A stretch of DNA of 64,000 nt from Rhizobium sp. Q54 (GTDB taxonomy: Bacteria; Pseudomonadota; Alphaproteobacteria; Rhizobiales; Beijerinckiaceae), in contig CAMCUC010000007.1 in the NCBI GenBank assembly GCA_945878875.1, positions 1-64,000 on the forward strand, given 5' to 3'. Of this stretch, positions 2,914-22,320 are shown one piece after another. The first letter of the stretch is position 1. Each line of letters opens with the position of its first letter. A program made the position numbers and the translations under genes. The notes under the pieces are model-generated. The model was given only the letters and a program-made list of their open reading frames with translations. It searched no databases and had not been told where the DNA came from.

Positions 2914-4104
2914 ATGATTGAAATGCCGTTGCAGCTCCGTCTGTTCACCTGCTTTATCGTCCTTGCTGCCTTGGCCTTTTCGCCTGAGGCACCACGCGCG
3001 CAAACGTTCGCGTCGAGCGCGCCATGGGCGATTCTGGTGGATGCCGAATCGGAAAGCGTTCTCTACGAGAAGAACGCCGACGAGCTGATGTCGCCAGCCT
3101 CGCTTGTCAAGATCATGACCGCCGAACTCGTGTTTAAGGAATTGCGGGAAGGGCGCTTCAACCTCGACGATACGTTCACGATTTCCGAGAACGCATGGCG
3201 GCGCGGCGGCGCACCATCTGGCGGGTCAGCAATGTTCGCGCAGCTCAACAGCCGCGTGAGGATTGAGGATCTGTTGCGCGGCATCATCGTTCAATCGGGC
3301 AATGACGCCGCCATAGCCATCGCCGAGGGCATGGCCGGGACGGAGGAAAACTTTGCATTGATGATGACGCGGCGCGCCCGAGAACTTGGCATGCGCGACA
3401 CCGTGTTCACAAACTCATGGGGACGCTTCGACGCGCGGCAGAAAACAACCGCACGCGATATGGCCAAGCTGTCGATCCATGTCATCAAGACCTATCCGGA
3501 ATATTACAGGTACTTCGGCGAGACTGAATTCACCTGGAACAAGATCCGCCAGCTTAATCGCAATCCGCTGCTGGCCATGAACATCGGGGCGGATGGTTTC
3601 AAGACGGGCAATATCGAGGATTCCGGCTTCGGACTCGTAGGGTCCGCGATAGAGCAGGGGCAGCGGCTCATCGTTGTCGTCAACGGCTTGAAGACCGGGC
3701 GCGATCGGGCGGAGGAATCGCGCAAGCTGCTCACGTGGGGCATGCGCGCGTTCGATCACAAGCCGCTGTTCGTCAGGGGGGAGGCGGTTGGCTCCGTACC
3801 TGTTTATGGAGGCGCCAGGGGGCGGGTTGACGTGTTCTCTGACATGCCTGTGAAGGTGATGATTCCGCGCGGCTCCGGCGAGCGCCTGACAGGGCGCATT
3901 GTGTTCAATGGCCCAATCGTTGCGCCAGTGCAGGAGGGCGACCAGATCGCGCGGCTGAAAATTTATCGCGGCCAAACGCTGGCGCTTGACGTGCCGCTAC
4001 GCGCCGCAGCATCGGTCGAAACTGGGGCGCTGCATCAGCGGGCGCTCGACGCCAGCTTCGAGCTGATCTCGGGCCTGTTTCGCAAATACGTGCTTGGCGG
4101 CTGA
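2914..4104 (+). CDS. dacA: D-alanyl-D-alanine carboxypeptidase (penicillin-binding protein, S11)
   Basis: Encodes 396 aa. It removes the terminal D-Ala of peptidoglycan stem peptides in the periplasm. From ATG 2914 there is a signal peptide ending near PRAQT. The serine-peptidase triad is complete: SLVK (Ser 63, Lys 66), SGN (in IIVQSGNDAA) and KTG (in DGFKTGNIEDSG). A C-terminal PBP5-like beta domain and a membrane-binding tail (FELISGLFRKYV) follow. No good ribosome binding site separates starts at 2878, 2914 and 2923; 2914 gives the most usual signal peptide. Its stop overlaps the tmk start by one base, so the two are translationally coupled. Confidence 0.9.
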   Translation: MIEMPLQLRLFTCFIVLAALAFSPEAPRAQTFASSAPWAILVDAESESVLYEKNADELMSPASLVKIMTAELVFKELREGRFNLDDTFTISENAWRRGGAPSGGSAMFAQLNSRVRIEDLLRGIIVQSGNDAAIAIAEGMAGTEENFALMMTRRARELGMRDTVFTNSWGRFDARQKTTARDMAKLSIHVIKTYPEYYRYFGETEFTWNKIRQLNRNPLLAMNIGADGFKTGNIEDSGFGLVGSAIEQGQRLIVVVNGLKTGRDRAEESRKLLTWGMRAFDHKPLFVRGEAVGSVPVYGGARGRVDVFSDMPVKVMIPRGSGERLTGRIVFNGPIVAPVQEGDQIARLKIYRGQTLALDVPLRAAASVETGALHQRALDASFELISGLFRKYVLGG

Positions 4105-4817
4105 TGGGCATTCAACGCGGACGTTTCATAACGCTTGAGGGCGGCGAGGGCGCGGGTAAATCAACGCAAGCCCAAATGCTGGCCGAAGCTCTGCGCGGGC
4201 AGGGGATTGAGGTTGTGGTGACGCGCGAACCCGGTGGCTCACCGCGCGCCGAGAAAATACGCGAGGCGATTTTGTCCGGCCTCATCGCGCCGCTGGGGCC
4301 GGTCGCAGAAGCCATGATGTTTACGGCGGCGCGCATCGACCATCTCGATAAAACCATCCGCCCGGCTTTGAAGCGCGGCGCCTTTGTGGTGTGCGACCGG
4401 TTTGCGGACTCAACCCGCGCCTATCAGGGCGCTCTGGGCAATATCGATCCGCGCCTGATCCGTTCGCTGGAGCGGATCGCGATTGGCGCTGACAAGCCCG
4501 ACCTAACCATTATGGTGGACGTTCCGGCGGCTGTCGGCATGGCGCGCGCTGCGCAACGGGGCGGGGCGCCTGATCGGTTTGAATCCGAGGCGCCAGCGTT
4601 CCATGAAGCGCTGCGCCGGAGTTTTTTGGAGATAGCCGCCAGCGAACCGGAACGCTGCGTGGTCGTGAACGGCGCGCAGGCACCCGAGATTGTGGCGCGC
4701 GACATCTGGAGCGCAGTTCAGGCGCGCTTGCCTGTCGCGGGCGAGGCTCCCAAAATGATACTCATGCCCAAAAGTAAACCACGCCGTGCCGCAAAATCCA
4801 GAGCGGGGGGCAAATGA
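4104..4817 (+). CDS. tmk: Thymidylate kinase
   Basis: Encodes 237 aa. It phosphorylates dTMP to dTDP in dTTP synthesis. The N-terminus carries the P-loop (GGEGAGKSTQ, residues about 13-22), followed by TREPGGSP, the DR(Y/F) motif as VCDRFADSTRAYQG, and a lid region. The last 20 residues are a basic tail (KSKPRRAAKSRAGGK) longer than in most family members. Start overlaps the carboxypeptidase stop (TGATG), and its stop overlaps the holB start by four bases (ATGA). The tmk-holB order is conserved across alphaproteobacteria. Confidence 0.95.
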   Translation: MGIQRGRFITLEGGEGAGKSTQAQMLAEALRGQGIEVVVTREPGGSPRAEKIREAILSGLIAPLGPVAEAMMFTAARIDHLDKTIRPALKRGAFVVCDRFADSTRAYQGALGNIDPRLIRSLERIAIGADKPDLTIMVDVPAAVGMARAAQRGGAPDRFESEAPAFHEALRRSFLEIAASEPERCVVVNGAQAPEIVARDIWSAVQARLPVAGEAPKMILMPKSKPRRAAKSRAGGK

Positions 4818-5899
4818 TCCGCAAGGTCGATGACTCCGTGCCTGAAAGCGATTGCTTTGCCGGCGCCGTGCATCCGCGCGAGACCATGGAATTGTTTGGC
4901 CATGATGGGGTCGAGCAGGAGTTTCTGGAGGCGTTCCGCTCCGGTCGTCTGCCGCAGGCCTGGCTTATCGGTGGGCGCGAAGGCATCGGCAAGGCGACGT
5001 TTGCATGGCGAGCCGCCCGCTTTGTGCTCTCATATGGAGATCCGCTTCTGCCCGCCGTGCAGCGGGCGCACAATCTTTCCACGCAGGAAGATCTGCTCCC
5101 TGTTCGTCGCATCATTGCGCGCTCGCACCCGGACGTTTCCGTGCTTCGGCGGGAATGGGATTCAAAAACAAAGAAACACTACACCGAAATCCGCGTCGAC
5201 GACGTACGCAAAACCATCGGGATGTTCCAGCGTTCGGCGGGCGAGGGCGGCTGGCGCGTCGCCATCGTCGACAGCGCCGACGATATGAACAAGTCGGGTG
5301 CCAATGCGCTGTTGAAAATGATCGAGGAGCCGCCGCCGCGCTGCCTGTTCTTTATTCTTGCGCACCAGCCCGGTCGCCTGCTGCCCACCATCCGCTCTCG
5401 TTGCCGCAAGGTGATGATGCAGTCACTGTCCGAAAGCGACGTGATTGCCGCCATTCGCGCGCAGGGCGACGAATGGGCGCAGCGTTCCGACGACGAGCTG
5501 CAACGCGCCGCGCACCGGGCCGGGGGCTCCGTGCTCGACGCCATGCGGCTGATGACGCAGGGCTCGCTCTCCATGGTGGAGAAAGCGGAATCCCAGCTCG
5601 CGCGCCTGCCCGCAATCGACTGGCGCCGCGTGCATGAGCTTGCCGCGTCCGTACAGGGCAGGGAAGGGCTTGAGGGTTTCGAAACGCTGCTGGCAACCAC
5701 TTTCGATTGGATCGACAGGACCGCGCGCGAGAACGCCGCCCTGCCGGACGCGCCCCGGCGTCTTGCGAACCTGGCGCAGGTATGGGAAAAGATAGCCGCA
5801 TCGGCGCGCGAAACGCAGACGTTCAACCTCGACCGCCGACCGCTCGTCCTGATGATGTTTTCGGACCTTTCGGAGGCAGTTCGCGCGTTGCGGGCGTAG
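4814..5899 (+). CDS. holB: DNA polymerase III subunit delta prime
   Basis: Encodes 361 aa, a clamp-loader AAA+ subunit that helps load the sliding clamp. It has a Walker-A-like IGGREGIGKATFAWR (residues about 51-65), sensor 1 VDSADDMNKSGANALLKMIEEPP and SRC in TIRSRCRKV. The zinc-finger cysteines present in many homologues are not evident. It is coupled to tmk (four-base overlap) and lies 44 bases before metG. Homology is clear from the conserved sensor motif; function follows the family. Confidence 0.93.
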   Translation: MIRKVDDSVPESDCFAGAVHPRETMELFGHDGVEQEFLEAFRSGRLPQAWLIGGREGIGKATFAWRAARFVLSYGDPLLPAVQRAHNLSTQEDLLPVRRIIARSHPDVSVLRREWDSKTKKHYTEIRVDDVRKTIGMFQRSAGEGGWRVAIVDSADDMNKSGANALLKMIEEPPPRCLFFILAHQPGRLLPTIRSRCRKVMMQSLSESDVIAAIRAQGDEWAQRSDDELQRAAHRAGGSVLDAMRLMTQGSLSMVEKAESQLARLPAIDWRRVHELAASVQGREGLEGFETLLATTFDWIDRTARENAALPDAPRRLANLAQVWEKIAASARETQTFNLDRRPLVLMMFSDLSEAVRALRA

Positions 5900-5943
5900 C
5901 CGTCAGTCCATAAGTCGATCAAGCTCACCAGTACAGGATGATC

Positions 5944-7527
5944 ATGGCTGCGCGCCCGACCTTTTGCATTTCCACCGCGATCCCCTACGCCAATGGCCGC
6001 CCCCATATCGGCCACGCCTACGAGCGCATCGCCACCGATTCCATCGCCCGCTTTCAGCGGCTGGATGGGCGCGACGTATTCTTCGTCACCGGCATGGACG
6101 AGCACGGGCTGAAGATGCAGCAGACGGCCGCGCGCGAAGGCGTCACGCCGCAAGAGCTGGCGGACCGCACCGCCGCGCAATTTCTGGAAATGGGCGACGC
6201 GCTCAACGCCCGCGCCGACCACGTCGTGCGCACGACCGAGCCGCGCCATTACGCCGCCTCGCAGGCGATCTGGACCAAGATGCAGGAGCGCGGCGATATT
6301 TACCTGGCCAAATATTCCGGCTGGTATTCCGTGCGCGAGGAGGCATATTTCGACGAGAGCGAGGTGACGCCCGGCCACGACGGCGCCAAAAACTCGCCCA
6401 ACGGCACGCCGGTGGAATGGGTGGAGGAAGAGAGCTATTTCTTCCGCCTCTCGGCCTATGGCGACCGCCTGCTCGCTCATTACGAGGCGAATGCCGACTT
6501 CATCGTCCCCGATAAATATCGCAACGAGATCATCGCCTTCGTTAAGCGCGGCCTTCAGGATTTGTCGATCAGCCGCACCAATTTCAACTGGGGCGTCCCG
6601 GTGCCCGGCGACGACAAGCACGTCATGTACGTCTGGGTCGACGCGCTCACAAACTACCTGACCGCCTGCGGCTATCCCGATGAAAATGCGCCCGACTGGC
6701 GCTTTTGGCCGGCTGACGCGCATGTGATCGGCAAGGACATTACGCGCTTCCATTCGATCTATTGGCCCGCGTTCCTGATGTCGGCGGGGCTTGAATTGCC
6801 CAAGCAGATCGTGGTGCACGGCTTCCTGTTCAACCGCGGCGAGAAAATGTCGAAATCGGTTGGCAACGTGATCGATCCGTTCACGCTGGCCAGCCATTAC
6901 GGCGTTGATCAGATGCGCTATTTCTTCCTGCGCGAAGTGCCGTTCGGACAGGACGGAAACTATTCGCACGAGGCCATTGTGAACCGCGTGAACGCGGATT
7001 TGGCCAATGATCTTGGCAATCTGGCGCAGCGCTCGCTGTCGATGATCGCCAAGAATTGCGAGGGCAGGGCGCCGATCCCGGGGGCTCTTACGGAAGCCGA
7101 TCAGGCGATCCTCGATCAGGCGTGGGCCTTGGCTGACAGAAGCCGCGCGGCGATGAAAGATTATGCGCTGCATCATGCGCTTGGTGAAATCTGGAAAGTG
7201 GTCGCCGACGCCAACCGCTATTTTGCCAGCGAAGAGCCGTGGGCCAAGGGCAAGACCGATCCCGAGCGGCGCGGCACGATCCTGTGGACCACGGCGGAAG
7301 TGCTGCGCAACGTCGCGATCATGGCGCAGCCGTTCATCCCGACCGCCGCTGGCAAGCTGCTCGATCTTGTCGGCTCCGCGTCTGATGCGCGCGAGTTTGC
7401 GCATGTTGGGGCCGCGCACAAGATTGCGGGCGGCCTGACGCTCCCGGGCCCAGCGCCGATTTTCCCGCGCTTTGTCGAGGCGGAAGAGGGCGCTGCTTCG
7501 GGCTCTCCTGCAGGCGCAAAAAGCTGA
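5944..7527 (+). CDS. metG: Methionyl-tRNA synthetase
   Basis: Encodes 527 aa, a class I synthetase charging tRNA-Met. The HIGH motif is in [11 protein letters not shown] (about residues 18-28) and the KMSKS motif in [10 protein letters not shown] (about residue 300). The connective-peptide region ([14 protein letters not shown]) lacks the four zinc cysteines, as in the short alphaproteobacterial form, and there is no C-terminal tRNA-binding extension. ATG 5944 is preferred over 5938 because ACAGG lies six bases before it. Its stop overlaps the tatD start by one base. It is in the tmk-holB-metG-tatD operon. Confidence 0.95.
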
Positions 7528-8312
7528 TGCTGATCGACACGCATTGCCACCTCGATTTCCCGGAGCTGGACGGCGATATCGCCGGGGTGCGGGCGCGCGC
7601 CCATGAGGCGGGCGTGGGCCGCATGATTACGATCTCGACGCGGGTCAAGAAATACGACGTCTATCGCGCCATCGCCGAGACGCATGACAACATCTGGTTC
7701 ACGGTGGGCACGCATCCGCATCAGGCGCACGAAGAGCCCGACGTGACGGTTGCTGACCTCGTAGCCCTCGCCTCGCACCCGCGCTGCGTCGCCATTGGCG
7801 AGGCCGGGCTCGACTATCATTACGACAAGAGCCCGCGCGACATCGCCGCCCGCGTGTTCCGCACGCATATCGCGGCGGCGCGGCAAACCGGCCTGCCGCT
7901 CGTGATCCACTCGCGCGACGCCGACGACGACATGGCCGCCATTTTGCGGGATGAGATGGGGAAGGGGCGTTTCAACGCTTTACTGCATTGCTTCACCGCC
8001 TCACGGGCGCTGGCCGACACGGCGATTGAGCTTGGGCTCTATGTGTCGTTCTCTGGCGTTCTGACGTTCAAAAATTCCGCCGAGCTGCGGGCCGTGGCCG
8101 CCGACGTGCCGATGGACCGGCTGCTGGTGGAGACCGACGCGCCGTTTTTGGCGCCGGCGCCGCACCGGGGCAAGTCCAACCAGCCGGCTTTCGTGACCGA
8201 AACCGCGAAGGTTCTGGCTGGCGTCAAGGGCGCAACCGATTCAGAAACAGCTTCAAAAACAACGTCAAACGCATTGCATTTATTTAATAAAATGCCGATG
8301 GGGTTTGAATGA
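7527..8312 (+). CDS. tatD: TatD-family metal-dependent deoxyribonuclease
   Basis: Encodes 261 aa, a TIM-barrel hydrolase of the TatD/YcfH group, with 3'-5' exonuclease activity in characterised members. Metal ligands are visible: DTHCHLD at the start, GEAGLDYHY near residue 92, HSRD near 128, HCF near 152, and ETDAPFL in the C-terminal part. Start and stop overlap metG (TGATG) and the next gene (four bases). The order metG-tatD-metallo-hydrolase is common in Rhizobiales and suggests a housekeeping role. Confidence 0.93.
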   Translation: MLIDTHCHLDFPELDGDIAGVRARAHEAGVGRMITISTRVKKYDVYRAIAETHDNIWFTVGTHPHQAHEEPDVTVADLVALASHPRCVAIGEAGLDYHYDKSPRDIAARVFRTHIAAARQTGLPLVIHSRDADDDMAAILRDEMGKGRFNALLHCFTASRALADTAIELGLYVSFSGVLTFKNSAELRAVAADVPMDRLLVETDAPFLAPAPHRGKSNQPAFVTETAKVLAGVKGATDSETASKTTSNALHLFNKMPMGFE

Positions 8313-9103
8313 GCCATCGCGTCGTAATCCTTGGTTGCGGCTCCTCGGGCGGCGTTCCGCGCGTTGGCGGCGATTGGGGCGCGTGCGATCCGGCCAACCC
8401 GCTGAACCGGCGCCGCCGCTGCTCGATTTTAGTTGAGCGCACCGGGCCAGCGGGCGTGACGACAGCTCTGATCGACACGTCGCCGGACCTGCGCGAGCAA
8501 TTGCTGGCCACCGGAACGACCAGTCTTGATGGCGTGCTCATCACCCATTCCCACGCCGATCATACGCACGGCATCGACGACGTGCGACCCTTGGTCATCA
8601 AGATGAAGCGCCGGATCGACCTGCACATGGACGAGGCGACGTCGCTGGCGCTACAGGCGCGTTTCGGCTATATTTTCGAGACGCCGCCTGGCAGCCAATA
8701 TCCGCCGCTGCTGACCGATTGCAGGCTCATTCCCGGCCAGTCAGCGCGCATTGGCGGGCCGGGCGGCGACATTGAGGCGGTCCCGTTCCGGCTCGATCAT
8801 GGCGACATGGATTCGCTGGGCTTCCGGTTTGGCGCAATGGCCTATACGCCGGACCTGATCGGCATACCGGAAGAAAGCCAGCAATATCTGGAGAACCTCG
8901 ACCTCTGGATCATCGATGCGCTGCGCTATACGCGCCACCCCAGCCATTTCAGCCTTGAAGAAGCGCTCGACTGGATCAAGCGCATGAGGCCACGCCGCGC
9001 CGTGCTGACGAACCTCCACACCGACCTCGATTACGACCGCCTGAAGGCGGAACTGCCAGCCGGCGTCACGCCAGCCTATGACGGCATGAGCCTGGAATTT
9101 TAG
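8309..9103 (+). CDS. MBL-fold metallo-hydrolase, PhnP-like
   Basis: Encodes 264 aa. The metallo-beta-lactamase fold is intact: GCGSSGGVPR at the N-terminus, HSHADHTHG (HxHxDH) near residue 76, a later HGD and a terminal LHTDLDY. The GCGSSxGVPR start and GACDPANPLNRRRR segment are typical of the PhnP branch, in which known members are cyclic phosphodiesterases. Here it ends the metG-tatD operon and no phosphonate genes are nearby, so a broader phosphodiesterase role is more likely. Its stop is the last coding position before the 850-bp dif region. Confidence 0.85.
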   Translation: MSHRVVILGCGSSGGVPRVGGDWGACDPANPLNRRRRCSILVERTGPAGVTTALIDTSPDLREQLLATGTTSLDGVLITHSHADHTHGIDDVRPLVIKMKRRIDLHMDEATSLALQARFGYIFETPPGSQYPPLLTDCRLIPGQSARIGGPGGDIEAVPFRLDHGDMDSLGFRFGAMAYTPDLIGIPEESQQYLENLDLWIIDALRYTRHPSHFSLEEALDWIKRMRPRRAVLTNLHTDLDYDRLKAELPAGVTPAYDGMSLEF

Positions 9104-9231
9104 AGGCTCCATATCTAGACCTCGCGCGGTCTTTTGCGCCTCAAAGATGCACGCGGTCCAGATACAGTCAGCAATTTTGCACGCGTTTCTCGCTATCCAT
9201 CTGAGCAGAAATGGCTTCTTCCTTCACGATT

Positions 9232-9259
9232 AAGTTCCATAATATACATTATGCGAAAT
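9232..9259 (-). other. dif: dif site (XerC/XerD chromosome dimer resolution site)
   Basis: Read on the minus strand the core is CGCATAATGTATATTATG. The two XerCD half-site cores CGCATAA and TTATG flank the six-base centre TGTATA. Over 28 positions it matches the Escherichia coli dif sequence at 21, including the whole centre and both inner arms. It stands alone in a non-coding stretch, as chromosomal dif sites do. XerC and XerD recombine here to resolve dimer chromosomes under control of FtsK, so this marks the replication terminus. The polarity of GGGNAGGG octamers reverses across it. Confidence 0.85.
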
Positions 9260-9855
9260 ACATGGATCAGACAATTGCTGACAAATGCGCATCTTACCTT
9301 GCTGTCACAGTTGTTCTCTTGCCGCCGTCTTTGCTATCCCTTGGCGCTCTCATGGCGCGCCCTTGCTGCACTGTTCCTGCGGGCTTGTGCCGATCGCTTA
9401 CTGCGCGCTTGCAATTGAGCCGACCGCCCTCCGGGTTTTGTTCAGAGCGCCCAAATCGTCCATGCGCTCGTTCTGTTGGCGAGCTCGTCACACCTCCGGC
9501 CTCATCATCGGGCCAGGCAGCGAGATGCCTATCTGCCGGAGGATTTCAGCTTGTTACGTGGCGCGCCAGGAGGATAAAGCTTTGGCTTTTTCGTGGCGGT
9601 TAGCATCCGGTTCAGATCGCCGTTGCCGCGTTTGCATCATCAGAGCTGCCTGCAAAACACTAGAAGATTCGTAAATTCAGTATGTAAGCGCCCTCGCCGC
9701 CTTCGCTGCTGCTTTGTGCAAAGAAGCCAAAAAAAGCAATAAAAGCCGTAGCCGGTCGCCAGTCTTGATGATATTCTTACAAATGTAGGCGCGGCGGGAC
9801 CGTAAATTGGCACACTCGAAGCTCAGGCTAGAAAGTCAATTGTCAGACGGATCTG

Positions 9856-9875
9856 CGGACGGACGTTTCCGTTCG
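9856..9875 (+). promoter_or_regulatory. Hairpin in the leader of the cold-shock gene
   Basis: CGGACGGA (9856-9863) pairs with TCCGTTCG (9868-9875) around the loop CGTT: eight pairs including one G-U. It lies about 75 bases before the start codon. Cold-shock genes often have structured leaders controlling translation at low temperature; a role here is inferred. Confidence 0.35.
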
Positions 9876-9949
9876 GACGTGGAGGGGACATGCGCGCCGC
9901 TATTTGGCGCCATGATATCGCGCACCTTTGGTGGAGACGAACGGAAGAC

Positions 9950-10591
9950 ATGAGCAAGGGTAAGGACTTTCGGCCAAGGAAGCGCGGCTTCGACGATGAT
10001 GGCCCGATGGATTACGGTAACAAGCCCGGGCGCCAGGCGCGCTCTCCCTTCGGTGGCGGGTTTCCTCCTCCGGACATTGGCATGCCCTCCACCCCGACCG
10101 TCGATGCGACGGTTAAATGGTTCAAGGGCGACAAAGGCTTCGGCTTCGTCGAGCTGGCTGACGGCGCTGGTGATGCGTTTCTCCATATCGGCGCACTTCA
10201 GTCCGCTGGCTATGAGAATGTGCCCCCGGGCGCCAAGCTCAAGGTTACGGTTGGTTCCGGTATGAAGGGCGCGCAAGTTACGCGCGTTGTTGAGGTTGAC
10301 GTATCAACCGCTTCAGCGGCTCCGCCTGCTCGCTCGTTCGACGGTCCCCGCCCCACCCGCCGCATGCCGGACGCAAATGATGCGATTGGCGTAAGCGGCA
10401 AGGTGAAATGGTTCGACCTGACGAAGGGCTTCGGCTTCATCGCCAGCGACGACGGCGGCAAGGATGTGTTCGTTCACATCTCGACGCTTCGTCCGGCCGG
10501 AATCGAAGAGCTGGTCGAAGGTCAGGCCGTGAACATGCAGGTCGTCGAGACGCCGAAGGGCCGCGAGGCTCTCTCGATCTCGCTTCCGTAA
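9950..10591 (+). CDS. Double cold-shock-domain protein
   Basis: Encodes 213 aa with two cold-shock domains, the arrangement typical of alphaproteobacteria. Domain 1 spans about residues 50-115 ([23 protein letters not shown]) and domain 2 about 145-212 ([23 protein letters not shown]); both keep RNP1 and RNP2 RNA-binding motifs. The N-terminus is basic ([12 protein letters not shown]) and a disordered linker joins the domains. The ATG at 9950 has GGAAG just upstream; an in-frame ATG at 9890 lacks support. It is expected to bind single-stranded RNA or DNA and melt structure. It ends in a strong terminator at 10615-10641 and seems monocistronic. Confidence 0.9.
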
Positions 10592-10614
10592 GAAGGTTGC
10601 CTGAACAAGTTTCA

Positions 10615-10641
10615 GGGCGCGCTTCTCAGCGCGCCCTTTTT
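10615..10641 (+). terminator. Rho-independent terminator of the cold-shock gene
   Basis: GGGCGCGC (10615-10622) and GCGCGCCC (10629-10636) form an eight-pair perfect stem with loop TTCTCA, followed by five T. It is 23 bases after the stop codon. Confidence 0.9.
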
Positions 10642-10656
10642 CGTTGGAAATTTCGC

Positions 10657-11496
10657 ATGAAGCCCTCGCGAGACATAGAACACCTCATCGCCATCATGTC
10701 GCGCCTGCGCACGCCTGTTGTTGGCTGCCCATGGGATATTGAGCAGGATTTCGCCAGCATCGCGCCCTGCGCCATTGAGGAGGCCTATGAGGTCGTGGAC
10801 GCTATCGAGCGTAACGATTTCATAGATTTACGCGAAGAACTGGGCGACCTGCTGCTGCAAGTGGTCTTCCATACGCAGATGGCGCAGGAGAAAAACCTGT
10901 TTGATTTCGGCGGTGTGGTCGAGGCGATCACCACCAAGCTAATCCGCCGTCACCCGCACGTTTTTGGCGAAGCGCGCGATCTCTCGCCGGACGAAGTGGC
11001 AAAAGCCTGGAACGCGATCAAGCAGGAGGAGAAGGCTGAACGGGCCGCCGCGCGCGCCGCTCTGGGGCCTGAGAACAAGGCGCAGGCACCCGACTCCTCA
11101 AGCGTGCTTGCTGGCGTGCCGCACGCCCTGCCCGCCCTGACGCGTGCGCTGAAATTGCAGCAGAAAGCCTCAAAAGTCGGGTTCGACTGGAACGACGCCC
11201 GGCTGGTGCTGGCGAAAATCCGCGAGGAATGCGACGAGCTGGAGCGCGAACTGGACGCTGGGGACAAGAATGCCGCCGCTGGCGAGATAGGCGATCTGAT
11301 CTTCGCCATGGTCAACCTCGCCCGCCATTGCGACGCAGACGCTGAAGGCGCGCTGCGGGGCACAAACGCGAAGTTTGAGCGCCGCTTCGGGTTCATCGAG
11401 GCGGAACTGGCGACGCTGGGCCGCACGCCTGCTGAAGCCAGCCTTGAAGAGATGGACGCGCTTTGGGACGCGGCCAAGCGGCGGGAGCGGGCGTAA
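10657..11496 (+). CDS. mazG: Nucleoside triphosphate pyrophosphohydrolase MazG
   Basis: Encodes 279 aa with two MazG domains, the usual length. It hydrolyses (d)NTPs to monophosphates and pyrophosphate, cleaning the nucleotide pool. The first domain has CPWDIEQDFASIAPCAIEEAYEV and LREELGDLLLQVVFH; the second has KVGFDWNDARLVLAKIREECDELE and GEIGDLIFAMVNLARH. The paired EExxE and ExxD motifs that bind magnesium are present in both. GGAAA lies seven bases before ATG 10657. The gene begins directly after the cold-shock terminator and is followed by a repeat element. Confidence 0.94.
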   Translation: MKPSRDIEHLIAIMSRLRTPVVGCPWDIEQDFASIAPCAIEEAYEVVDAIERNDFIDLREELGDLLLQVVFHTQMAQEKNLFDFGGVVEAITTKLIRRHPHVFGEARDLSPDEVAKAWNAIKQEEKAERAAARAALGPENKAQAPDSSSVLAGVPHALPALTRALKLQQKASKVGFDWNDARLVLAKIREECDELERELDAGDKNAAAGEIGDLIFAMVNLARHCDADAEGALRGTNAKFERRFGFIEAELATLGRTPAEASLEEMDALWDAAKRRERA

Positions 11497-11543
11497 AGGG
11501 CGCGGTGAAAACATGCAGGCTCCCAGCCCGCGGTCCTGGAAAT

Positions 11544-11684
11544 CCCCCTCATCCGTCGTTTGCTAACGCAAACGCCACCTTCTCCCGCGAGAGGAGAAGG
11601 TGGCACACGATCAGCAGAGACGCCTCTTTCTTCCCTTCTCCCCTTGCGGGAGAAGGTGGCGCGCAAAGCGCGACGGATGAGGGG
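11544..11684. repeat. Intergenic palindromic element (rhizobial REP/RIME-like)
   Basis: The outer 14-base arms CCCCTCATCCGTCG (11545-11558) and CGACGGATGAGGGG (11671-11684) are perfect inverted copies. Inside are two further hairpins built from CACCTTCTCCC and GGAGAAGGTGG. This matches the well-known family of short palindromic intergenic repeats of Rhizobiales. It sits between the convergent mazG and hflX genes and may also end their transcripts. Only one copy is in this window. Confidence 0.75.
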
Positions 11685-11718
11685 ATCTTCTACTTATCAA
11701 AACCCTAGCGCCATAGCC

Positions 11719-13173
11719 TCACAAACCGCGCGAAGTGCCACGACGTCGTGCGGTCGAACGCTCAGGCCCCGATTTACGCGCATCGGGAAAACGTCGCAGC
11801 AGGCGCTCGGCGCGTTCGGGAGCGACGCGCACCGACAGCTTCATGCCGTCATCGCTGTCTTCCCGTGAGATGATCTGCGTCTGCGCGTAGAGCCAGCTCA
11901 GGCCCTCGCCGTCTTCGGGCGGCAGCTCCAGATCGAACGCCGTATGATTGGCTGACAGGCGGGCCTCGATGCCATTGAGGAGGTCATTGACCCCTTCTCC
12001 CGTGAGCGCCGACACCACGAACGGACGTTGACGAACGGGGCCGCGCCGGGCGGCATTGATGAGCGCCATGCGGCGGTCGTCGTCGAGCAGGTCGATCTTG
12101 TTCCACACTTCAACGATGCGCGGATCGTGCGGCTCTATGCCCAGCTCTTCGAGAATGTTTTCAACGTCGGCGCTCTGAGCCGCTGTGTCCTCGTGCGACA
12201 GGTCGCGCACATGCAGCACGACGTCGGCGGAGATCACCTCCTCCAGCGTGGCGCGGAAGGCGGAGACCAGCTGCGTCGGCAAATCGGAAATGAATCCCAC
12301 CGTATCCGACAGCATGATGCGCTCGCCATGAGGCAGGCGCACGGCGCGCAGCGTCGGGTCGAGCGTGGCGAACAACATATCCTTTGCTAGCACTTCCGCC
12401 TGCGTCAAGCGGTTGAATAGCGTGGATTTTCCCGCGTTCGTATAGCCGACGAGCGCAACCACCGGATACGGCACGTCCTGCCGCTGCTTGCGATGCAGGC
12501 CGCGCGTCTTCTTCACCGTCTCAAGCTCGCGCTCGATGCGGATCACGCGCTCCTGAATGAGACGGCGGTCGGTCTCGATCTGCGATTCACCAGGGCCGCC
12601 AAGGAAGCCGAAGCCGCCACGCTGGCGCTCCAGATGGGTCCATGAGCGCACGAGGCGCGATTTCTGGTAGCCCAAATGCGCAAGCTCGACCTGCAAAGAG
12701 CCCTCGCGGGTGCGGGCGCGGCGGCCGAAAATTTCCAATATCAGCCCGGTGCGGTCAATCACCTTGGCGCCGAAGGCTTTTTCAAGATTACGCTGCTGCA
12801 CGGGCGACAGGGCGCAATCGACCATGACGAGGCCGATGTCCTCCTCCCGAACGCGAGCGGCGATGTCGTCCACCTTGCCGGTGCCGATGAAGGTCGCCGG
12901 TCGAATTTGCGTGAGCATCACGGTTTCGTGCCCAACCACGTCAAGGTCGATGGCGCGGGCGAGGCCCTCAGCCTCCAGAATTCGGGCACCGGGATCGCGC
13001 ACGAATTCCCGTCCGTCCACGCTCTTGCGGGCGATCTGGGCGGCGCGCACGGCGGCGCGTTCGGTGAGGTATGGCCCCACCACGAGGGCTTTGGTGTTTT
13101 CCGCCGCCGCCCGCTCGGGGTCGTACCCGGGCGCGGGCTGGGCGGCTCTTTGTCTGGTGTCTGCTTCGGTCAA
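11719..13173 (-). CDS. hflX: GTPase HflX
   Basis: Encodes 484 aa. HflX is a ribosome-associated GTPase that splits stalled or heat-damaged ribosomes. The HflX-specific N-terminal domain ([29 protein letters not shown]) is followed by the glycine-rich linker [19 protein letters not shown] and the G domain: G1 [11 protein letters not shown]3 DTVGFI, G4 NKID. The C-terminus is basic. It is 22 bases downstream of hfq on the same strand, a conserved pairing, so the two are probably co-transcribed. Confidence 0.95.
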
Positions 13174-13195
13174 GCGCGCTCCGCGTCAGCCAGAA

Positions 13196-13456
13196 TCACG
13201 GGAGGGGTTTTTCCCCGCCCTCTTCCGCCGGCTCGAACATCGAGATCGGCGTGCCTGGCATGATCGTGGATATGGCGTGCTTGTAGACCAGTTGCGAGTG
13301 TCCATCCCGCCGCAACAGCAAACAAAAGTTGTCGAACCATGTCACGACGCCTTGTAACTTGACGCCGTTGACCAGGAAGATAGTGAGCGGGACTTTCTGT
13401 TTCCGAACGTAGTTCAGAAAAGTGTCCTGCAGATTTTGGGCGCGTTCAGCCGCCAT
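13196..13456 (-). CDS. hfq: RNA chaperone Hfq
   Basis: Encodes 86 aa. Hfq forms a hexamer that pairs small RNAs with mRNAs. The Sm1 region ([23 protein letters not shown]) and Sm2 motif ([10 protein letters not shown]) are both typical. The ATG at 13456 is preceded by GAGGGG; the frame continues upstream but those codons are not Hfq-like. It leads an hfq-hflX operon. The 188-bp upstream region should hold its promoter and includes a 21-base tandem duplication. Confidence 0.97.
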
Positions 13457-13621
13457 TTTTATTCCCCTCTCACCTCCGCAGCCGCTCATTCGGCTGCGAG
13501 GGTCATTCAGACTTTCGTCTGTTTTCAGACATTGCATGCAGTCCGAACCAAGTAAAGGACGCGCCGGACTTATTGACAACCACGTTTAAGGAGCATGGCC
13601 TTGAGTGCTTGCCTATCCCAG

Positions 13622-13657
13622 GATCAAGCTTCTTGCTTACTTGATCAAGCTTCTTGC
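13622..13657. repeat. Tandem duplication of 15 bases at the hydrolase 3' end
   Basis: GATCAAGCTTCTTGC occurs at 13622-13636 and again at 13643-13657, a period of 21 bases. The second copy forms the last codons and stop of the downstream-reading hydrolase gene (its 3' end at 13645). It looks like a recent local slippage duplication. Confidence 0.7.
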
Positions 13658-14340
13658 ACCGGCCCCTTTATGGCGCGCTGCGGGGTCGGCCGCTTGATGG
13701 GGTTGTCGAGGCGGCGATCAAGGTAAGTGGTGACTTCACCAATCAGATCGTCGATGCAATTCTCGAAGAAATGGTTGGCGCCCTTCACCACGGCATGCTC
13801 GATGAGTATGCCCTTCTGGGTCTTCAGCTTTTCGATCAGGCCCATCACTTCCTTCAGCGGCGCAACGCGATCCTGATCGCCGTGGACGAACAGGCCGGAT
13901 GAAGGGCATGGGGCCAGGAACGAGAAATCGAAACGGTTTGCGGGCGGCGCAATCGAGATGAAGCCCTCGATTTCAGGGCGGCGCATCAGCAATTGCATGC
14001 CTATCCATGAGCCAAACGAGACGCCGGCGATCCAGCAAGCGCGTGCTTCCGGGTTGATCGACTGCACCCAGTCGAGCGCGGCGGCAGCGTCCGACAATTC
14101 GCCCGAGCCATGGTCGAAATTGCCCTGGCTGCGACCGACGCCGCGAAAGTTGAAGCGCAACACCGAGAAGCCGCGCTCGGCGAAGGCGTAATACATCTGG
14201 TAGACGATCTGGTTGTTCATCGTCCCGCCAAACTGCGGGTGGGGATGAAGAATCACCGCAATCGGTGCGCCGCGCGTCTTGGAGGGATGGAACCGGCCCT
14301 CAAGGCGGCCGGCGGGTCCGGTGAAGATGACTTCAGGCAT
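13645..14340 (-). CDS. Alpha/beta hydrolase of the COG2945 type
   Basis: Encodes 231 aa. The alpha/beta hydrolase fold is shown by HPHPQFGGTMNN (oxyanion region), RFNFRGVGRSQG, the nucleophile elbow GVSFGS and a late GANHFF with the catalytic histidine. HGDQDRVAP holds the likely acid. The ATG at 14340 has GGAG nine bases upstream; the longer frame to 14547 is not conserved-looking. The family is common in alphaproteobacteria and of unproven substrate. It is divergent from the cysteine desulfurase and shares the intergenic region that holds the Irr-box-like motif. Confidence 0.85.
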   Translation of the reverse strand: MPEVIFTGPAGRLEGRFHPSKTRGAPIAVILHPHPQFGGTMNNQIVYQMYYAFAERGFSVLRFNFRGVGRSQGNFDHGSGELSDAAAALDWVQSINPEARACWIAGVSFGSWIGMQLLMRRPEIEGFISIAPPANRFDFSFLAPCPSSGLFVHGDQDRVAPLKEVMGLIEKLKTQKGILIEHAVVKGANHFFENCIDDLIGEVTTYLDRRLDNPIKRPTPQRAIKGPVQEA

Positions 14341-14419
14341 CGTGTCTCCAAAAAGGCTGCAAACCGGCTGGATAAGACGCGCATTTCTTGACTTGGACGC
14401 TGCGAAAGGCGAAAATAAC

Positions 14420-14436
14420 GTTAGAACAATTCTAAA
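14420..14436. promoter_or_regulatory. Irr-box-like iron control element (ICE)
   Basis: The 17-base palindrome GTTAGAA-CAA-TTCTAAA matches the TTTAGAA-N3-TTCTAAA pattern that I recall for the Irr box of Rhizobiales with one difference at the first base. A second perfect palindrome, CAGTCCGGACTG, follows directly at 14437-14448. It is 150 bases before the cysteine desulfurase start and about 80 before the divergent hydrolase. Irr senses haem and controls iron-using genes, so control of the Fe-S locus is a sensible inference. Confidence 0.65.
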
Positions 14437-14589
14437 CAGTCCGGACTGGCCGGGATTTTCTGCTTCGCGCGTCACGTCAAAAAATGCGTTTGGAACCCTG
14501 CTTTGATCGTAAGCGGCTTTTACCACGCAGGCTGGCAGTGAGTGCAAGCATTTTTAGCAAGTACGTGGAAACCGGGACACAAGACGCAT

Positions 14590-15759
14590 ATGAGGCGGGA
14601 ACGGGTTTATCTCGACTGGAACGCCACGGCGCCGCTTCTGCCCGCCGCACGCGTTGCTTTTGTGGCTGCGCTCGATTGCTCCGGCAACCCTTCCTCCGTC
14701 CATCAGGAAGGGCGCCGCGCGCGGGCGCTCGTTGAGCAGGCTCGCGCTGACGTCGCCGCGCTTGTGGATACCGCCCCTGCCCGCGTCACCTTCACGTCTG
14801 GCGGCACAGAAGCCGCTAATCTTGCGTTGAGCCAAGGGTTTATCCCCGCCGACAGGCGCGCGCCGGATCTCCTTGTGGTGAGTGCTGGCGAGCATGCCTG
14901 CGTACTGGAGGGGCATCGTTTCCCGGCGGATCAAGTTCGCATCGCGCCGATGAATCAGCATGGCCAGCTTGATCTGGTCGCGCTTGCCGCGCTGCTTGAG
15001 AATGCTGGCGAGGCCCGCGTCATGCTGGCCTTGCAGGCCGCCAATAACGAAACCGGCGTGGTCCAGCCGGTGCGCGAGGCTGCCGCCCTTGTCCATGAGC
15101 GCGGCGGGATTGTTGTCTGCGACATCGTGCAGGCGGCAGGGCGCATCGCCTGCAGCTTTGAAGCGCTGGACGCTGACGCGTTGATCCTGTCCGCCCACAA
15201 GATTGGCGGCGCCAAGGGCGTAGGCGCCCTTGTGTTGCGCGATCCGCAGGCCAATATCGAGTTTGCGCAAGTGCGCGGCGGCGGACAGGAGCGCGGGCTG
15301 CGCGCGGGCACGGAAAATGTCGCGGGGATAGCGGCTTTCGGAAGCGCCGCCCGGCATATGGCGGATCAGGACAGTTTCGAGCAGGTCCGGCTTGCAAAGC
15401 TGCGCGACGAGATGGAGCTTCGGCTCACAAGCGCCCTGCCCGATCTGATAATCTTCGGGGATGGCGTAACGAGACTATCTAATACGTCCGCTTTCGGGTT
15501 ATCTGGATTAGCTGCCTCGACTCTGCTGATTGCGCTGGACCTTGAAGGGTTCGCTGTGTCATCCGGGTCGGCCTGCTCGTCGGGCAAGGTTAAGGCCTCG
15601 CATGTGCTGGCCGCTATGGGGATCGCCCCCGAGCTGGCGCAGAGCGCGATCCGGGTGAGTCTCGGGCGCGACACGCAGGCCGATGAGATTGAGGCGTTTT
15701 GCGATGCGTATATTCGCGTGGCGGAACGGATTGGAGACAGGCGCAGAACGGCGGCGTGA
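14590..15759 (+). CDS. Cysteine desulfurase, NifS/IscS class
   Basis: Encodes 389 aa. It takes sulfur from cysteine for Fe-S clusters using pyridoxal phosphate. The NifS-like start (VYLDWNATAPL), SGGTEAANLAL, NNETGVVQP, the PLP lysine in SAHKIGGAKG and the class I active-site loop SSGSACSSGK are visible. It therefore differs from the class II SufS encoded at 20124. ATG 14590 starts at the conserved N-terminus; the frame extends to 14542 without support. It heads the Fe-S locus, 96 bases before sufB, downstream of the Irr-box-like motif. Confidence 0.92.
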   Translation: MRRERVYLDWNATAPLLPAARVAFVAALDCSGNPSSVHQEGRRARALVEQARADVAALVDTAPARVTFTSGGTEAANLALSQGFIPADRRAPDLLVVSAGEHACVLEGHRFPADQVRIAPMNQHGQLDLVALAALLENAGEARVMLALQAANNETGVVQPVREAAALVHERGGIVVCDIVQAAGRIACSFEALDADALILSAHKIGGAKGVGALVLRDPQANIEFAQVRGGGQERGLRAGTENVAGIAAFGSAARHMADQDSFEQVRLAKLRDEMELRLTSALPDLIIFGDGVTRLSNTSAFGLSGLAASTLLIALDLEGFAVSSGSACSSGKVKASHVLAAMGIAPELAQSAIRVSLGRDTQADEIEAFCDAYIRVAERIGDRRRTAA

Positions 15760-15855
15760 TGCGCTGAATAAAATATTGATCGGGTCGGGATACCGACGCG
15801 TATTAACGATGTGGTCCAACCAGCGGTCCTTGAAACCGCCAAGGGGGAGAAGGAA

Positions 15856-17325
15856 ATGGCTGCAGTTCACGAGACCATTCAAACGGTCAAGTCAGTTGAC
15901 GTAGACGCCTACAAGTACGGCTTCGTCACGGACATCGAGTCCGACAAGGCCCCCAAGGGTCTGAGTGAGGACATCGTCCGTTTCATCTCCGCGCGCAAGA
16001 ACGAGCCGGAGTGGATGCTGGAATGGCGCCTCGACGCCTATCGGCGCTGGCTCGCCATGAAGGAGCCCGATTGGGCGCGGGTCGATTATCCAAAGATCGA
16101 CTATCAGGATCTCTATTATTACTCGGCGCCGAAATCCATGTCGGGCCCGCAATCGCTCGACGAGGTCGATCCTGAACTGCTGCGCACCTATGATCGCCTC
16201 GGCATCCCGCTGCGCGAACGCGAGGCGCTGCTCGGTATCCCCAGCTCGCGCGTGGCGGTGGACGCGGTGTTCGATTCCGTTTCGGTCGCCACGACCTTCA
16301 AGGCTGAGCTGGCGAAATCCGGCGTGATTTTCTGCCCAATCTCCGAGGCCTTGCAAGAGCATCCCGAACTGGTGCGCAAGTACATCGGCACGGTTGTGCC
16401 GGTGACGGACAATTATTTCGCCACCCTCAACAGCGCCGTGTTCTCGGACGGATCGTTCGTCTATATCCCGCCGGGCGTGCGCTGCCCGATGGAATTGTCG
16501 ACCTATTTCCGCATCAACGAGCGCAATACCGGGCAGTTTGAGCGCACGCTCATCATCGCCGACAAGGGCTCTTACGTGAGTTATCTTGAAGGCTGCACGG
16601 CGCCCATGCGCGACGAGAACCAGCTGCACGCGGCGGTCGTCGAACTCGTCACGCATGACGACGCCGAGATCAAATACTCAACTGTTCAAAACTGGTATCC
16701 CGGCGACAGCGAGGGCAAGGGCGGCATCTACAATTTCGTGACCAAGCGCGGTGATTGCCGTGGCGACCGCTCGAAGATTTCATGGACGCAGGTCGAGACC
16801 GGCTCTGCGATCACGTGGAAATATCCCTCCTGCATCTTGCGCGGCGACCATTCGCGCGGCGAGTTCTATTCGATCGCAATTTCCAACGGAAAGCAGCAGG
16901 TCGATAGCGGCACGAAAATGCTGCATCTGGGCAAGAACACGTCGAGCCGCATCATCTCGAAGGGCATCTCGGCGGGCCGCTCCAACAACACCTATCGCGG
17001 CCAGGTGTTTGCGCATCGCAAGGCCAGCAACGCGCGCAATTTCACCAATTGCGACTCGCTGTTGATCGGCCAGGAGTGCGGCGCCCATACCGTGCCCTAC
17101 ATCGAATCGCGCAATGCGAGCGCAGTGTTCGAGCACGAAGCTACGACGTCGAAAATCTCCGACGACCAGCTGTTCTATTGCATGCAGCGCGGGCTTTCTT
17201 CGGAGGAAGCCACCGCGCTGATCGTCAACGGCTTCGTGCGCGACGTGCTGCAACAATTACCGATGGAGTTCGCGGTGGAGGCGCAAAAGCTGATCGCCGT
17301 GAGCCTTGAGGGGAGCGTGGGGTGA
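15856..17325 (+). CDS. sufB: Fe-S cluster assembly scaffold SufB
   Basis: Encodes 489 aa, the core of the SufBC2D scaffold on which Fe-S clusters are built. Conserved blocks include [58 protein letters not shown] and [20 protein letters not shown] with the conserved cysteine. GAGAAGGA precedes ATG 15856. Its stop overlaps the start of the nucleotidyltransferase gene (TGATG), so a non-Suf gene is coupled directly to sufB. Confidence 0.97.
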
Positions 17326-17687
17326 TGCTGACCGCAGCGCCCGCCAACAAAGGACGTTTCCCAACCGAAGAAGCGGCGCTCATTGCTGTCGTGGATCGAC
17401 TTGTGAGTTCGTTTGATCCGCAGTCGATCTGGCTGTTCGGAAGCCGCGCACGCGGCGAGGCGCGGCCTGACAGCGATTTCGATTTGCTGGTTGTCGCCAA
17501 GCCTGAGAGCGGTTTTGGTTCGGATGATTACGAGGCTCTGGATCGACAAGTGAGCGACCTGCGCGTGGGATGCGACATCGTCCCCTGCGCGGCGAGCGAT
17601 TTTGTGGCTGGCCAACAGGCTCCAACGTCGCTCGTGGCGCAGATCGTGCGTGACGGACGTGAGCTTTATTGCGCGAGGCCGCGATGA
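17325..17687 (+). CDS. MNT-type nucleotidyltransferase, partner of the HEPN protein
   Basis: Encodes 120 aa. The minimal nucleotidyltransferase signature is intact: LFGSRARGEARPDSDFDLLV, with the GS pair and the DxD metal ligands. Such proteins pair with HEPN partners; in characterised MntA/HepT modules the MNT protein adds AMP to the HEPN toxin and silences it. The ATG overlaps the sufB stop by one base (GTG 17322 is an alternative). Its stop overlaps the next start (ATGA). The pair is inserted between sufB and sufC, so it is transcribed with the Fe-S assembly operon. A toxin-antitoxin role is inferred. Confidence 0.85.
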   Translation: MLTAAPANKGRFPTEEAALIAVVDRLVSSFDPQSIWLFGSRARGEARPDSDFDLLVVAKPESGFGSDDYEALDRQVSDLRVGCDIVPCAASDFVAGQQAPTSLVAQIVRDGRELYCARPR

Positions 17688-18079
17688 ACGTCGCCTCAAA
17701 GGTTCGCGTAGACGCATTTCTTCAGATCGCATTCGAGGAACGCGAGGCTGCGTTACGGCTTGCCGATCCTTTGCCGAGACAGGCTATTTATTTCGTGCAG
17801 CAAGCGGTCGAGAAATTGCTGCGCGCCGTGCTTGAGGCGGAGGGCGTTCCGGCTGGCGTGAGTCATAACCTGCGCTATTTGTGCGAGCTTTTGTCTGAAG
17901 AACATGCCTTGAAGGCGATATTCATGGAGTTTGAGCCGCTCAGCGCGGCCTCAACGCGCTATCGTTACCCTTCCGTGACGGGCAAGCTTTCAGCGCCTGC
18001 TGCGGATGACGTCCAGAAATGCCTGAAAATGCTGACGCCGCTGGATGAAGCGGTTCGAAAGCGTCTTCAAAAAGATTGA
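17684..18079 (+). CDS. HEPN domain protein
   Basis: Encodes 131 aa, an all-helical HEPN protein of the type found beside MNT nucleotidyltransferases. Characteristic is AIYFVQQAVEKLLRAVL followed by a short loop and HNLRYLCELL. The R-x4-6-H ribonuclease motif of HepT toxins is not obvious, so it may belong to the non-nuclease branch that binds nucleotides or RNA. It overlaps the MNT gene by four bases and ends 13 bases before sufC. Whether the pair is a toxin-antitoxin module or a regulator of Suf is open. Confidence 0.8.
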   Translation: MNVASKVRVDAFLQIAFEEREAALRLADPLPRQAIYFVQQAVEKLLRAVLEAEGVPAGVSHNLRYLCELLSEEHALKAIFMEFEPLSAASTRYRYPSVTGKLSAPAADDVQKCLKMLTPLDEAVRKRLQKD

Positions 18080-18092
18080 ACACAGAAAGACA

Positions 18093-18854
18093 ATGGTGCT
18101 TGCGATGCTGAACATCACCAACCTCCACGCCAGCGTGGACGACAAGGAAATCCTCAAGGGCCTGACGCTCAGCGTGAAGCCGGGCGAAGTTGCGGCCATC
18201 ATGGGGCCGAACGGCGCGGGCAAATCCACGCTGTCTTATGTTGCGGCGGGCCGCGCAGGCTATGACGTGACCGCTGGCGACGTGACGCTGAACGGCGAGA
18301 GCCTGATTGATCTGGCCGCCAACGAGCGCGCGGCCAAGGGGTTATTTCTGGCGTTTCAATATCCGCTCGAAATTCCCGGCGTCACCACGATGACGTTCCT
18401 GAAAGCCGCGATGAATTCGCAGCGCAAGCAGCGCGGCGAGGCGGAGCTTTCCACGCCCGATTTCATGAAGCGTGTGCGCGCCGCCGCCGACAAGCTCGGC
18501 ATTCCGCAGGACATGCTGCGCCGCCCGCTCAACGTCGGCTTTTCCGGCGGCGAGAAGAAGCGCATGGAAGTGCTGCAAATGGCGCTGCTGGAGCCGCGTT
18601 TTGCGATTCTCGACGAGACCGATTCCGGGCTCGACATCGATGCGCTGCGCATTGTCGCCGACGGCGTGAACGCGCTGCGCTCGCCTGATCGCAGCTTCCT
18701 CGTCATCACCCATTATCAGCGCCTGCTCGACTACATCAAGCCCGACAGCGTGCACGTTCTTGCTGGCGGGCGCATCGTTAAGTCCGGCGGTCCCGAGCTG
18801 GCCCATGAACTCGAAAAGAACGGCTACCGCGATTACGTCGCGGACGCCGCGTGA
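18093..18854 (+). CDS. sufC: Fe-S assembly ATPase SufC
   Basis: Encodes 253 aa, an ABC-type ATPase of the SufBCD scaffold. Walker A GPNGAGKST, signature FSGGEKKRMEV and Walker B FAILDETDSGLDIDAL are present; the ETDSGLD form is diagnostic of SufC. ATG 18093 has AGAAAGA upstream; ATG 18105 is also possible. It is eight bases before sufD. Confidence 0.97.
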   Translation: MVLAMLNITNLHASVDDKEILKGLTLSVKPGEVAAIMGPNGAGKSTLSYVAAGRAGYDVTAGDVTLNGESLIDLAANERAAKGLFLAFQYPLEIPGVTTMTFLKAAMNSQRKQRGEAELSTPDFMKRVRAAADKLGIPQDMLRRPLNVGFSGGEKKRMEVLQMALLEPRFAILDETDSGLDIDALRIVADGVNALRSPDRSFLVITHYQRLLDYIKPDSVHVLAGGRIVKSGGPELAHELEKNGYRDYVADAA

Positions 18855-18861
18855 GATTGTC

Positions 18862-20124
18862 ATGACAGCCATCGTCAAGCCGCTGCGCACGCCAGCCGAA
18901 ACCGGAATACTTGAAGCGTTCGCCGCCAGCGCTGCGCTGAACGATCCCGCGCGCTCCGTGCGCGAGGCCGCGATTGCGCGCATAGCTGACATCGGCCTGC
19001 CCGGCAGGCGTAACGAGCCGTGGCATTACACGGATTTACGCACGCTGCTAAAAACTGTTCCGCCCGTCGCCGAACTTGAATCAGCGACCGCCCTGCCCGG
19101 CGCGTTTGTGATTGACGGTGCGTCGCAAATCGTGTTCTCCGGCGCCCGTATGAGCCAGAGCGGCGCCCTGCCCGCTGGCGTCACGCTCGCGTCGTTGCCC
19201 TATGATGCGCAGGTCTCGCCCGCCATCCCCGCTGGCGAGGCGCTTGTCGCACTCAATGCAGCCTTTGCACTCGCCAGCGCGGCGCTGGTGATTGCGCCCG
19301 GAACCCATGCGGGCGCGCTGCATATAGCTTTCCGTGACGCTCACGAAGCGGCTGCAAGTCTCGCGCGCCGCGTGCGGATAGAGGTTCAGGCCGGCGCGTC
19401 CGTCACGATCATTGAGAGCCACGAGAGCCGCAACGGGCTAGGCCATCTCACCAACACGCTCATTGAGTTCGAGCTGGGAGACGGGGCTAAAGTGCATCAC
19501 GTGCGCGTCAATTCATGCGGCGATGAAGCGAACTCGCTATCTACGCTGGCGGCGCGCGTCGGCGACAATGCAAACTTCGCCACGCTGTCGATGACGACCG
19601 GCGCGCGCGTGTCGCGGCATCAGATTTTCATCCGCTATGCTGGCGAGCATGCCCATGTCGCTCTGCGCGGCGTGAGCCTGTTGCGTGGCAAGCAGCATGC
19701 CGACACCACGCTGGTGATTGACCACGCAACGCCAAATTGCGAAAGCCGCGAGGCGTTCAAGACCATCGTTGACGGCGACGCCACAGGCGTTTTCCAGGGC
19801 CGCATCGTCGTTGCGCCGCACGCGCAAAAGACCGATGCACGCATGTCGTCAAAAGCGCTTCTGCTGTCGGAAGGCGCGACGATGAACAACAAGCCCGAGC
19901 TGGAGATTTTCGCCGACGACGTGCAATGCGCTCATGGCGCAACGTGCGGCGAGCTGGACGACAATTTGCTATTCTACATTATGGCGCGCGGCCTGCCGAA
20001 ACGGGAGGCGGAAGCGCTTCTGCTGGAGGCGTTTGTCGGCGACGTGATTGATGAAGTCGAGGATGAGACATTGCGTGAAGTCTTGATGGACAAGGCGCGC
20101 GACTGGCTTGCGGAGCGCACATAA
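18862..20124 (+). CDS. sufD: Fe-S assembly protein SufD
   Basis: Encodes 420 aa, the SufB paralogue in the SufBC2D scaffold. The N-terminus has RNEPWHYTDLRTLL and the C-terminus the shared SufB/SufD fold with RIVVAPHAQKTDARMSSKAL, LEIFADDVQCAHGATCGELD and the invariant histidine in CAHGAT. The start is placed at ATG 18862, just after the sufC stop. Its stop overlaps the sufS start (TAATG). Confidence 0.95.
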   Translation: MTAIVKPLRTPAETGILEAFAASAALNDPARSVREAAIARIADIGLPGRRNEPWHYTDLRTLLKTVPPVAELESATALPGAFVIDGASQIVFSGARMSQSGALPAGVTLASLPYDAQVSPAIPAGEALVALNAAFALASAALVIAPGTHAGALHIAFRDAHEAAASLARRVRIEVQAGASVTIIESHESRNGLGHLTNTLIEFELGDGAKVHHVRVNSCGDEANSLSTLAARVGDNANFATLSMTTGARVSRHQIFIRYAGEHAHVALRGVSLLRGKQHADTTLVIDHATPNCESREAFKTIVDGDATGVFQGRIVVAPHAQKTDARMSSKALLLSEGATMNNKPELEIFADDVQCAHGATCGELDDNLLFYIMARGLPKREAEALLLEAFVGDVIDEVEDETLREVLMDKARDWLAERT

Positions 20125-21368: not shown

Positions 21369-21377
21369 GGTTTGCAG

Positions 21378-21770: not shown

Positions 21771-21816
21771 TATTTTTCGATGCTTCGCCGGACCTTGAAC
21801 CCGGCTGGAGGATGAA

Positions 21817-22209: not shown

Positions 22210-22220
22210 GCGGCCCATAC

Positions 22221-22243
22221 GGGCTGGAGGCCCACGGTCCATA
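22221..22243. repeat. Dispersed 23-base repeat, copy 1
   Basis: Starts GGGCTGGA and ends CGGTCCATA. Near-identical copies are at 33078-33100 and 48593-48615, each right after a gene end. The three copies differ only at the base after GGGCTGGA and one base before CGGTCC. Confidence 0.75.
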
Positions 22244-22260
22244 GGGTGCCTGTTTGGAAC

Positions 22261-22284: not shown

Positions 22285-22320
22285 CTGTCACCAAAGAGCG
22301 CGCGGTCCAGATAGAGCTGA

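Follow-up and report, generated by a model that had tools for sequence, protein, structure and literature searches.

At dif, a site in the terminus region, bacteria separate chromosome copies that have become joined by accident. Characterized proteobacterial dif sites are 28 bp long, with two 11-bp inverted arms around a 6-bp center. Among the sites tabulated by Carnoy and Roten (2009, PMC2731167, Table 1), those of Agrobacterium, Mesorhizobium and both chromosomes of Brucella share the GGAAC XerD arm of the site described here, and the dif of the Agrobacterium tumefaciens C58 circular chromosome is placed in an intergenic region near the GC-skew maximum. PMC13342612 treats the switch in KOPS orientation at dif as a structural hallmark and reports it on replicons including those of Sinorhizobium meliloti; since that source covers the switch, we claim no novelty for it. 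Our literature search for KOPS/FtsK/dif in Rhizobiales found no paper.

Within the window, the whole 64,000-nucleotide stretch of DNA that was analyzed, a 28-bp site at 9232..9259 has the layout just described. We put the probability that it is the normal chromosomal dif of a Hyphomicrobiales bacterium at about 97%. A dif in the terminus region had been proposed in a first-pass annotation, and this reading is now supported by the arms and center of the sequence, by its single copy in the draft genome, by its conservation as an island within the genus, by published dif sites of the same type and, above all, by a KOPS switch at the site. The site is a real but ordinary dif, and as a biological discovery it is routine.

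The plus strand at 9232-9259 reads AAGTTCCATAATATACATTATGCGAAAT and its reverse complement ATTTCGCATAATGTATATTATGGAACTT, and the XerC-to-XerD direction runs along the minus strand. On that strand the XerC-side arm ATTTCGCATAA, assigned from the sequence and from the layout of E. coli and of Carnoy and Roten, occupies 9249..9259, the central hexamer TGTATA 9243..9248 and the XerD-side arm TTATGGAACTT 9232..9242. Palindromic positions account for 18 of the 28, and the G+C content of the site is 25%, against 57-66% in the 2-kb blocks of the window. The 21/28 match to the Escherichia coli K-12 dif claimed in the first-pass annotation is borne out on the minus strand (18 positions agree on the plus strand). 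So is its claim that the complete center and the inner parts of both arms are shared, as these form an exact 18-base core, CGCATAATGTATATTATG, made up of the inner XerC arm, the whole center and the inner XerD arm. The two sites differ in the outer XerD arm (TTAAAT in E. coli, GAACTT here) and also in the outer XerC arm.

The draft (2,838,879 bases in 91 contigs, 92.78% complete) was searched for further copies of the 28-mer, a check that the first-pass annotation had put forward, and contains one at up to 3 mismatches and none of the reversed control pattern. A search for the 18-base core with up to 3 mismatches likewise finds one copy, and that copy is exact. The reversed control of the core also finds one match within 3 mismatches, so that it is the exactness of the core, not its mere presence, that goes beyond chance; by our own arithmetic, assuming even base use, an exact 18-mer is expected ~8e-5 times on both strands of 2.84 Mb. 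The window itself holds one match to the site pattern, with none in 100 shuffles.

The closest comparison is with published sites from the same order. The dif of the A. tumefaciens C58 circular chromosome (PMC2731167) is identical to our site at 23 of 28 positions and has the same XerD arm, TTATGGAACTT, whereas its center is GATATA (TGTATA here) and its outer XerC arm TAAT (ATTT here). The Bordetella dif is identical at 24/28 positions, equal to Bartonella, and identity over the whole site therefore does not single out the order. The site is of the type common in its own order, a likeness that the comparison with E. coli undersells.

Sites of the genus type (up to 3 mismatches) are present in 40 of 51 same-genus genomes, our own included, and the control pattern matches none. 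They are found in 26 of the 30 genomes with a completeness of 90% or more and a contamination of 5% or less; the pattern is unmatched in 11 of the 51, four of which belong to these 30 better assemblies. With each genome counted once, all 40 sites, that of the window included, have CGCATAA and TTATGGAAC, and positions 18-26, in the XerD-side arm, do not vary. The centers do vary: TCTATA in 13 of the 40, TCAATA in nine, GGTATA in six, TGTATA, the hexamer shared with E. coli, in four (our own among them) and six others in the remaining eight. In an alignment anchored on the site and comprising 30 genus loci of the 40 sites (L064, which has the same gap as L021, was left out), mean information per column is 1.67 bits across the 28 bp versus 0.16 and 0.14 bits in the flanking 80 bp on either side. 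As the core was chosen by the search pattern, the informative part of this profile is the drop in the flanks. In the same alignment, bases 29-31, just past the XerD arm, carry 1.35, 1.09 and 0.65 bits. We considered these bases as a wider feature of dif and rejected the idea, since the signal fades to 0.48, 0.39 and 0.17 bits in 116 named loci among the matches listed; it is a weak trait of the genus.

Beyond the genus, a scan of the GTDB genome collection gave at least 116 stretches of named genome records with an exact match to the core. The names among the matches listed include Methylobacterium, Microvirga, Devosia, Bosea, Labrys, Kaistia, Stappia, Methylocapsa and others, genera that we take to be Hyphomicrobiales; some of the listed records are titled merely Alphaproteobacteria or Proteobacteria. 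Additional sites were seen in three genomes, two of which, G015 and G010, belong to the genus set. Genome G015 has two extra genus-type matches, both on its second contig. A second dif-like site in G052 (Microvirga sp. VF16; C1:4501166-4501191) has 3 mismatches and an altered center, and lies on the same chromosome. G010 has a second site of Mesorhizobium/Brucella-like type (C66:28728-28753) in an assembly flagged as 8% contaminated, and the contig that carries it is probably foreign.

The site sits in an intergenic gap of 786 bases (9104..9889), bounded by the stop of an MBL-fold gene at 9103 and the start of a cold-shock open reading frame at 9890, and begins 128 bases past that stop. The first-pass annotation had described a site alone in a non-coding gap of 850 bases; the length needed correcting. 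Neither of the two longest open reading frames within the gap, one of 130 aa that would span the site (9211-9603) and one of 129 aa (9285-9674), matches a Pfam family at E 0.001, and no Rfam family reaches its gathering score between 8000 and 11000.

On the XerD side the site is approached by plus-strand genes for methionine--tRNA ligase (metG, 5938..7527), from a neighborhood often found beside dif in relatives, a TatD-family DNase (7527..8312) and the MBL-fold metallohydrolase that adjoins the XerD arm (8309..9103). On the XerC side, adjoining that arm, lies the gene for a cold-shock-domain protein (9890..10591, plus), followed by those for a MazG nucleoside triphosphate pyrophosphohydrolase (10408..11496, plus; longest open reading frame, with the family match starting at residue 90) and the GTPase HflX (11719..13173, minus). 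Also around the site are tmk, holB and a suf cluster. Of the named loci among the matches listed, 80 have enough sequence on the XerD side, and 49 of these carry mbl, tatD or metG within 2 kb of dif; all 102 such genes on that side are oriented toward dif. On the XerC side, csp, mazG or hflX lies within 2 kb in 29 of 81. The MBL gene is visible in 66 of the named loci listed, 65 times on the XerD side. In the single exception, L153, dif seems flipped relative to both metG-tatD-mbl and mazG-hflX. Among same-genus loci with 1 kb of flank or more, these neighbors are present in 17 of 30 on the XerD side and 18 of 27 on the XerC side, and in G015 none of eleven tested window proteins finds a match in the 20-kb stretch that contains its dif. 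The window looks to have kept the ancestral terminus arrangement of the Hyphomicrobiales, with metG-tatD-mbl on the XerD side of dif and csp-mazG-hflX on the XerC side, an address found in many families of the order. That this address and its polarity are held by selection, for example on gene order around the FtsK/XerCD synapse, rather than merely inherited, strikes us as unlikely.

The best functional evidence for reading the site as dif is the polarity of KOPS (GGGNAGGG), scored by strand across the 74,788-base contig, in which dif lies 9 kb from one end. Left of dif there are six KOPS on the plus strand and none on the minus; to the right there is one on the plus strand and 18 on the minus. 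Thus 24 point toward dif and one away (Fisher P = 4e-5 for left/right by strand). The six on the left (3146..7966, plus strand) start at 3146, 4197, 5656, 5661, 7062 and 7959; sixteen of those on the minus strand, likewise pointing at dif, fall inside the window at 11126..60665 and two more lie past it on the same contig, and the sole opposed copy is on the plus strand at 41338. The switch point with the fewest exceptions, 7959-11126, brackets dif. Of the 3057 gapped octamers that occur 15 times or more in the contig, GGGNAGGG is the most strongly polarized. This polarity does not simply follow the coding strand, as the plus-strand sufB/sufD and cysteine desulfurase reading frames (14.5-21.4 kb) lie amid minus-strand KOPS. 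In G015, which is assembled in two contigs, 50 KOPS point toward dif and three away and the motif ranks first of 12378, using 19 of 20 sampled 20-kb chromosome stretches (the stretch holding dif was left out). The polarity is weaker in G054 (YIM 77505), with 76 toward versus 21 away and rank 29 of 8686, from 14 of 17 stretches, the three omitted lying far round toward the presumed origin. In G053 the KOPS switch between the stretches flanking dif (tabulated, unranked).

Elements that use XerCD insert at dif, and this counts for a reading in which the site belongs to an integrated phage, genomic island or plasmid and is not the chromosome's own. About a quarter of proteobacterial dif sites lie beside mobility genes, according to PMC2731167, and a phage-like trace is present 8 kb from ours. 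Set against this are the absence of a second copy from the draft (searched with up to 3 mismatches), the lack of direct repeats in the gap around the site, the housekeeping genes on either side, with the same neighborhood in relatives, and above all the KOPS switch, which largely refutes a mobile origin; we hold it to be very improbable. The trace itself lies at the contig end, before a tRNA-Ser (TGA) gene (1418-1507, minus strand), where an open reading frame at 288-830 weakly matches phrog_10226 (PHROG, unknown function) and the reading frames tested across 1-1507 have no Pfam match. This end may be a decayed element next to the tRNA gene. The first-pass annotation had taken dif as the explanation for a nearby decayed element; that proposal is not supported, as the candidate at 1-1400 is ~8 kb distant and nothing links it to dif.

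The site could instead be the dif of a secondary replicon (chromid), because large replicons in this order have dif-like sites of their own and the draft does not show which contigs share one molecule. The presence of metG, tmk, holB, hflX and the suf cluster around the site, together with a center, TGTATA, that is found among the other sites of the genus (4/40, own included), speaks for the main chromosome, and we give the chromid reading still less credence than a mobile origin. Differing centers on different replicons are already reported in PMC2731167. Our own observations on such replicons are as follows. In three of three genomes, G015 (locus L162), G051 and G053, the dif-like site on C2 has a center ending in TATC while that of the same genome's chromosome ends in TATA. 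In 14 secondary-replicon sites (G015 C2 and 13 chosen plasmid sites) position 17 is C in seven, G in two and A in five; the query behind six of the 13 plasmid sites had C there to begin with, and of the seven from the window query one has C. We therefore rejected C at position 17 as a private signature of secondary replicons: the wider plasmid sites break the rule and the sample is biased. Ten sampled stretches around the G015 C2 site show no switch in KOPS polarity, which speaks against this site acting like the chromosome's dif, unless the replicon is laid out otherwise. Lastly, that our site is a chance or regulatory AT-rich palindrome resembling dif, such as an operator of the cold-shock or MBL gene, would suit its 18/28 palindromic positions and its place between two genes, but is refuted in practice by the exact 18-base core shared with the E. 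coli dif and by its retention in 40 of 51 genus genomes, even with other neighbors (G015), and can be set aside as negligible.

The GC skew agrees coarsely with the assignment of the site as the chromosomal dif, and is compatible with it, not decisive. A skew turning point near the site had been anticipated in the earlier reading. On the 74.8-kb contig, one of 91 in the draft, the cumulative maximum is at 23400, 14 kb from dif; for this one contig of a fragmented genome, the offset falls inside the interquartile range of 2.1-21.4 kb (median 7.3 kb) given for 161 chromosomes in PMC2731167. In G015 the skew changes sign between 1.43 and 1.50 Mb, 30-100 kb from its dif at 1.399 Mb, and the opposite change occurs between 4.42 and 4.90 Mb of 5.94 Mb, near the opposite pole. 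The sampled stretches of G054 and G053 give no clean switch. We did not accept GC skew alone as proof, as it is irregular in our contig, in G054 and in G053, with a clear whole-replicon picture in G015 only. A reading of the site as the exact point of termination is not supported.

Genes for both recombinases are encoded in the draft, with scores under the curated cut-offs. A XerC-like protein of 325 aa on contig C34 scores 303.9 bits (cut-off 335.15), with the XerC model preferred over XerD, and a XerD-like protein on C35, truncated by the contig end after 296 aa, scores 256.1 bits (cut-off 329.6), with the XerD model preferred over XerC. The XerD family search is unspecific, as it is positive in 14 of 14 control genomes, some of them archaeal. 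The gamma domain of FtsK is present in 42 of 51 genus genomes but was not found in our draft. Searches with FtsK of G007 and with its two neighboring genes likewise gave no match in our draft (G000) or in its sister G031; the proteins encoded next to dif in these two drafts are 97-98% identical. An assembly or binning gap would account for the absence of the whole ftsK block from both. The alternative is a real loss in the lineage, but polarity of KOPS as sharp as this speaks for FtsK having been at work. A single weak PF01580 match was considered as FtsK and rejected, since to us its reading frame resembles a different ATPase in the HerA/FtsK class.

By analogy with the known Xer/FtsK system, an odd number of crossovers between sister chromosomes would give a dimer, and FtsK at the division septum would pump DNA along KOPS toward dif from both sides. 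FtsK would then bring two dif copies together and activate XerD, and XerC and XerD, predicted to bind the site, would exchange strands in its 6-bp center and so split the dimer.

In a short contig, KOPS polarity can locate dif with a precision of ~3 kb, against an error of 14 kb for GC skew. The dif assigns the window to the chromosome's terminus region, an aid to ordering contigs and to reading strand biases in the draft.
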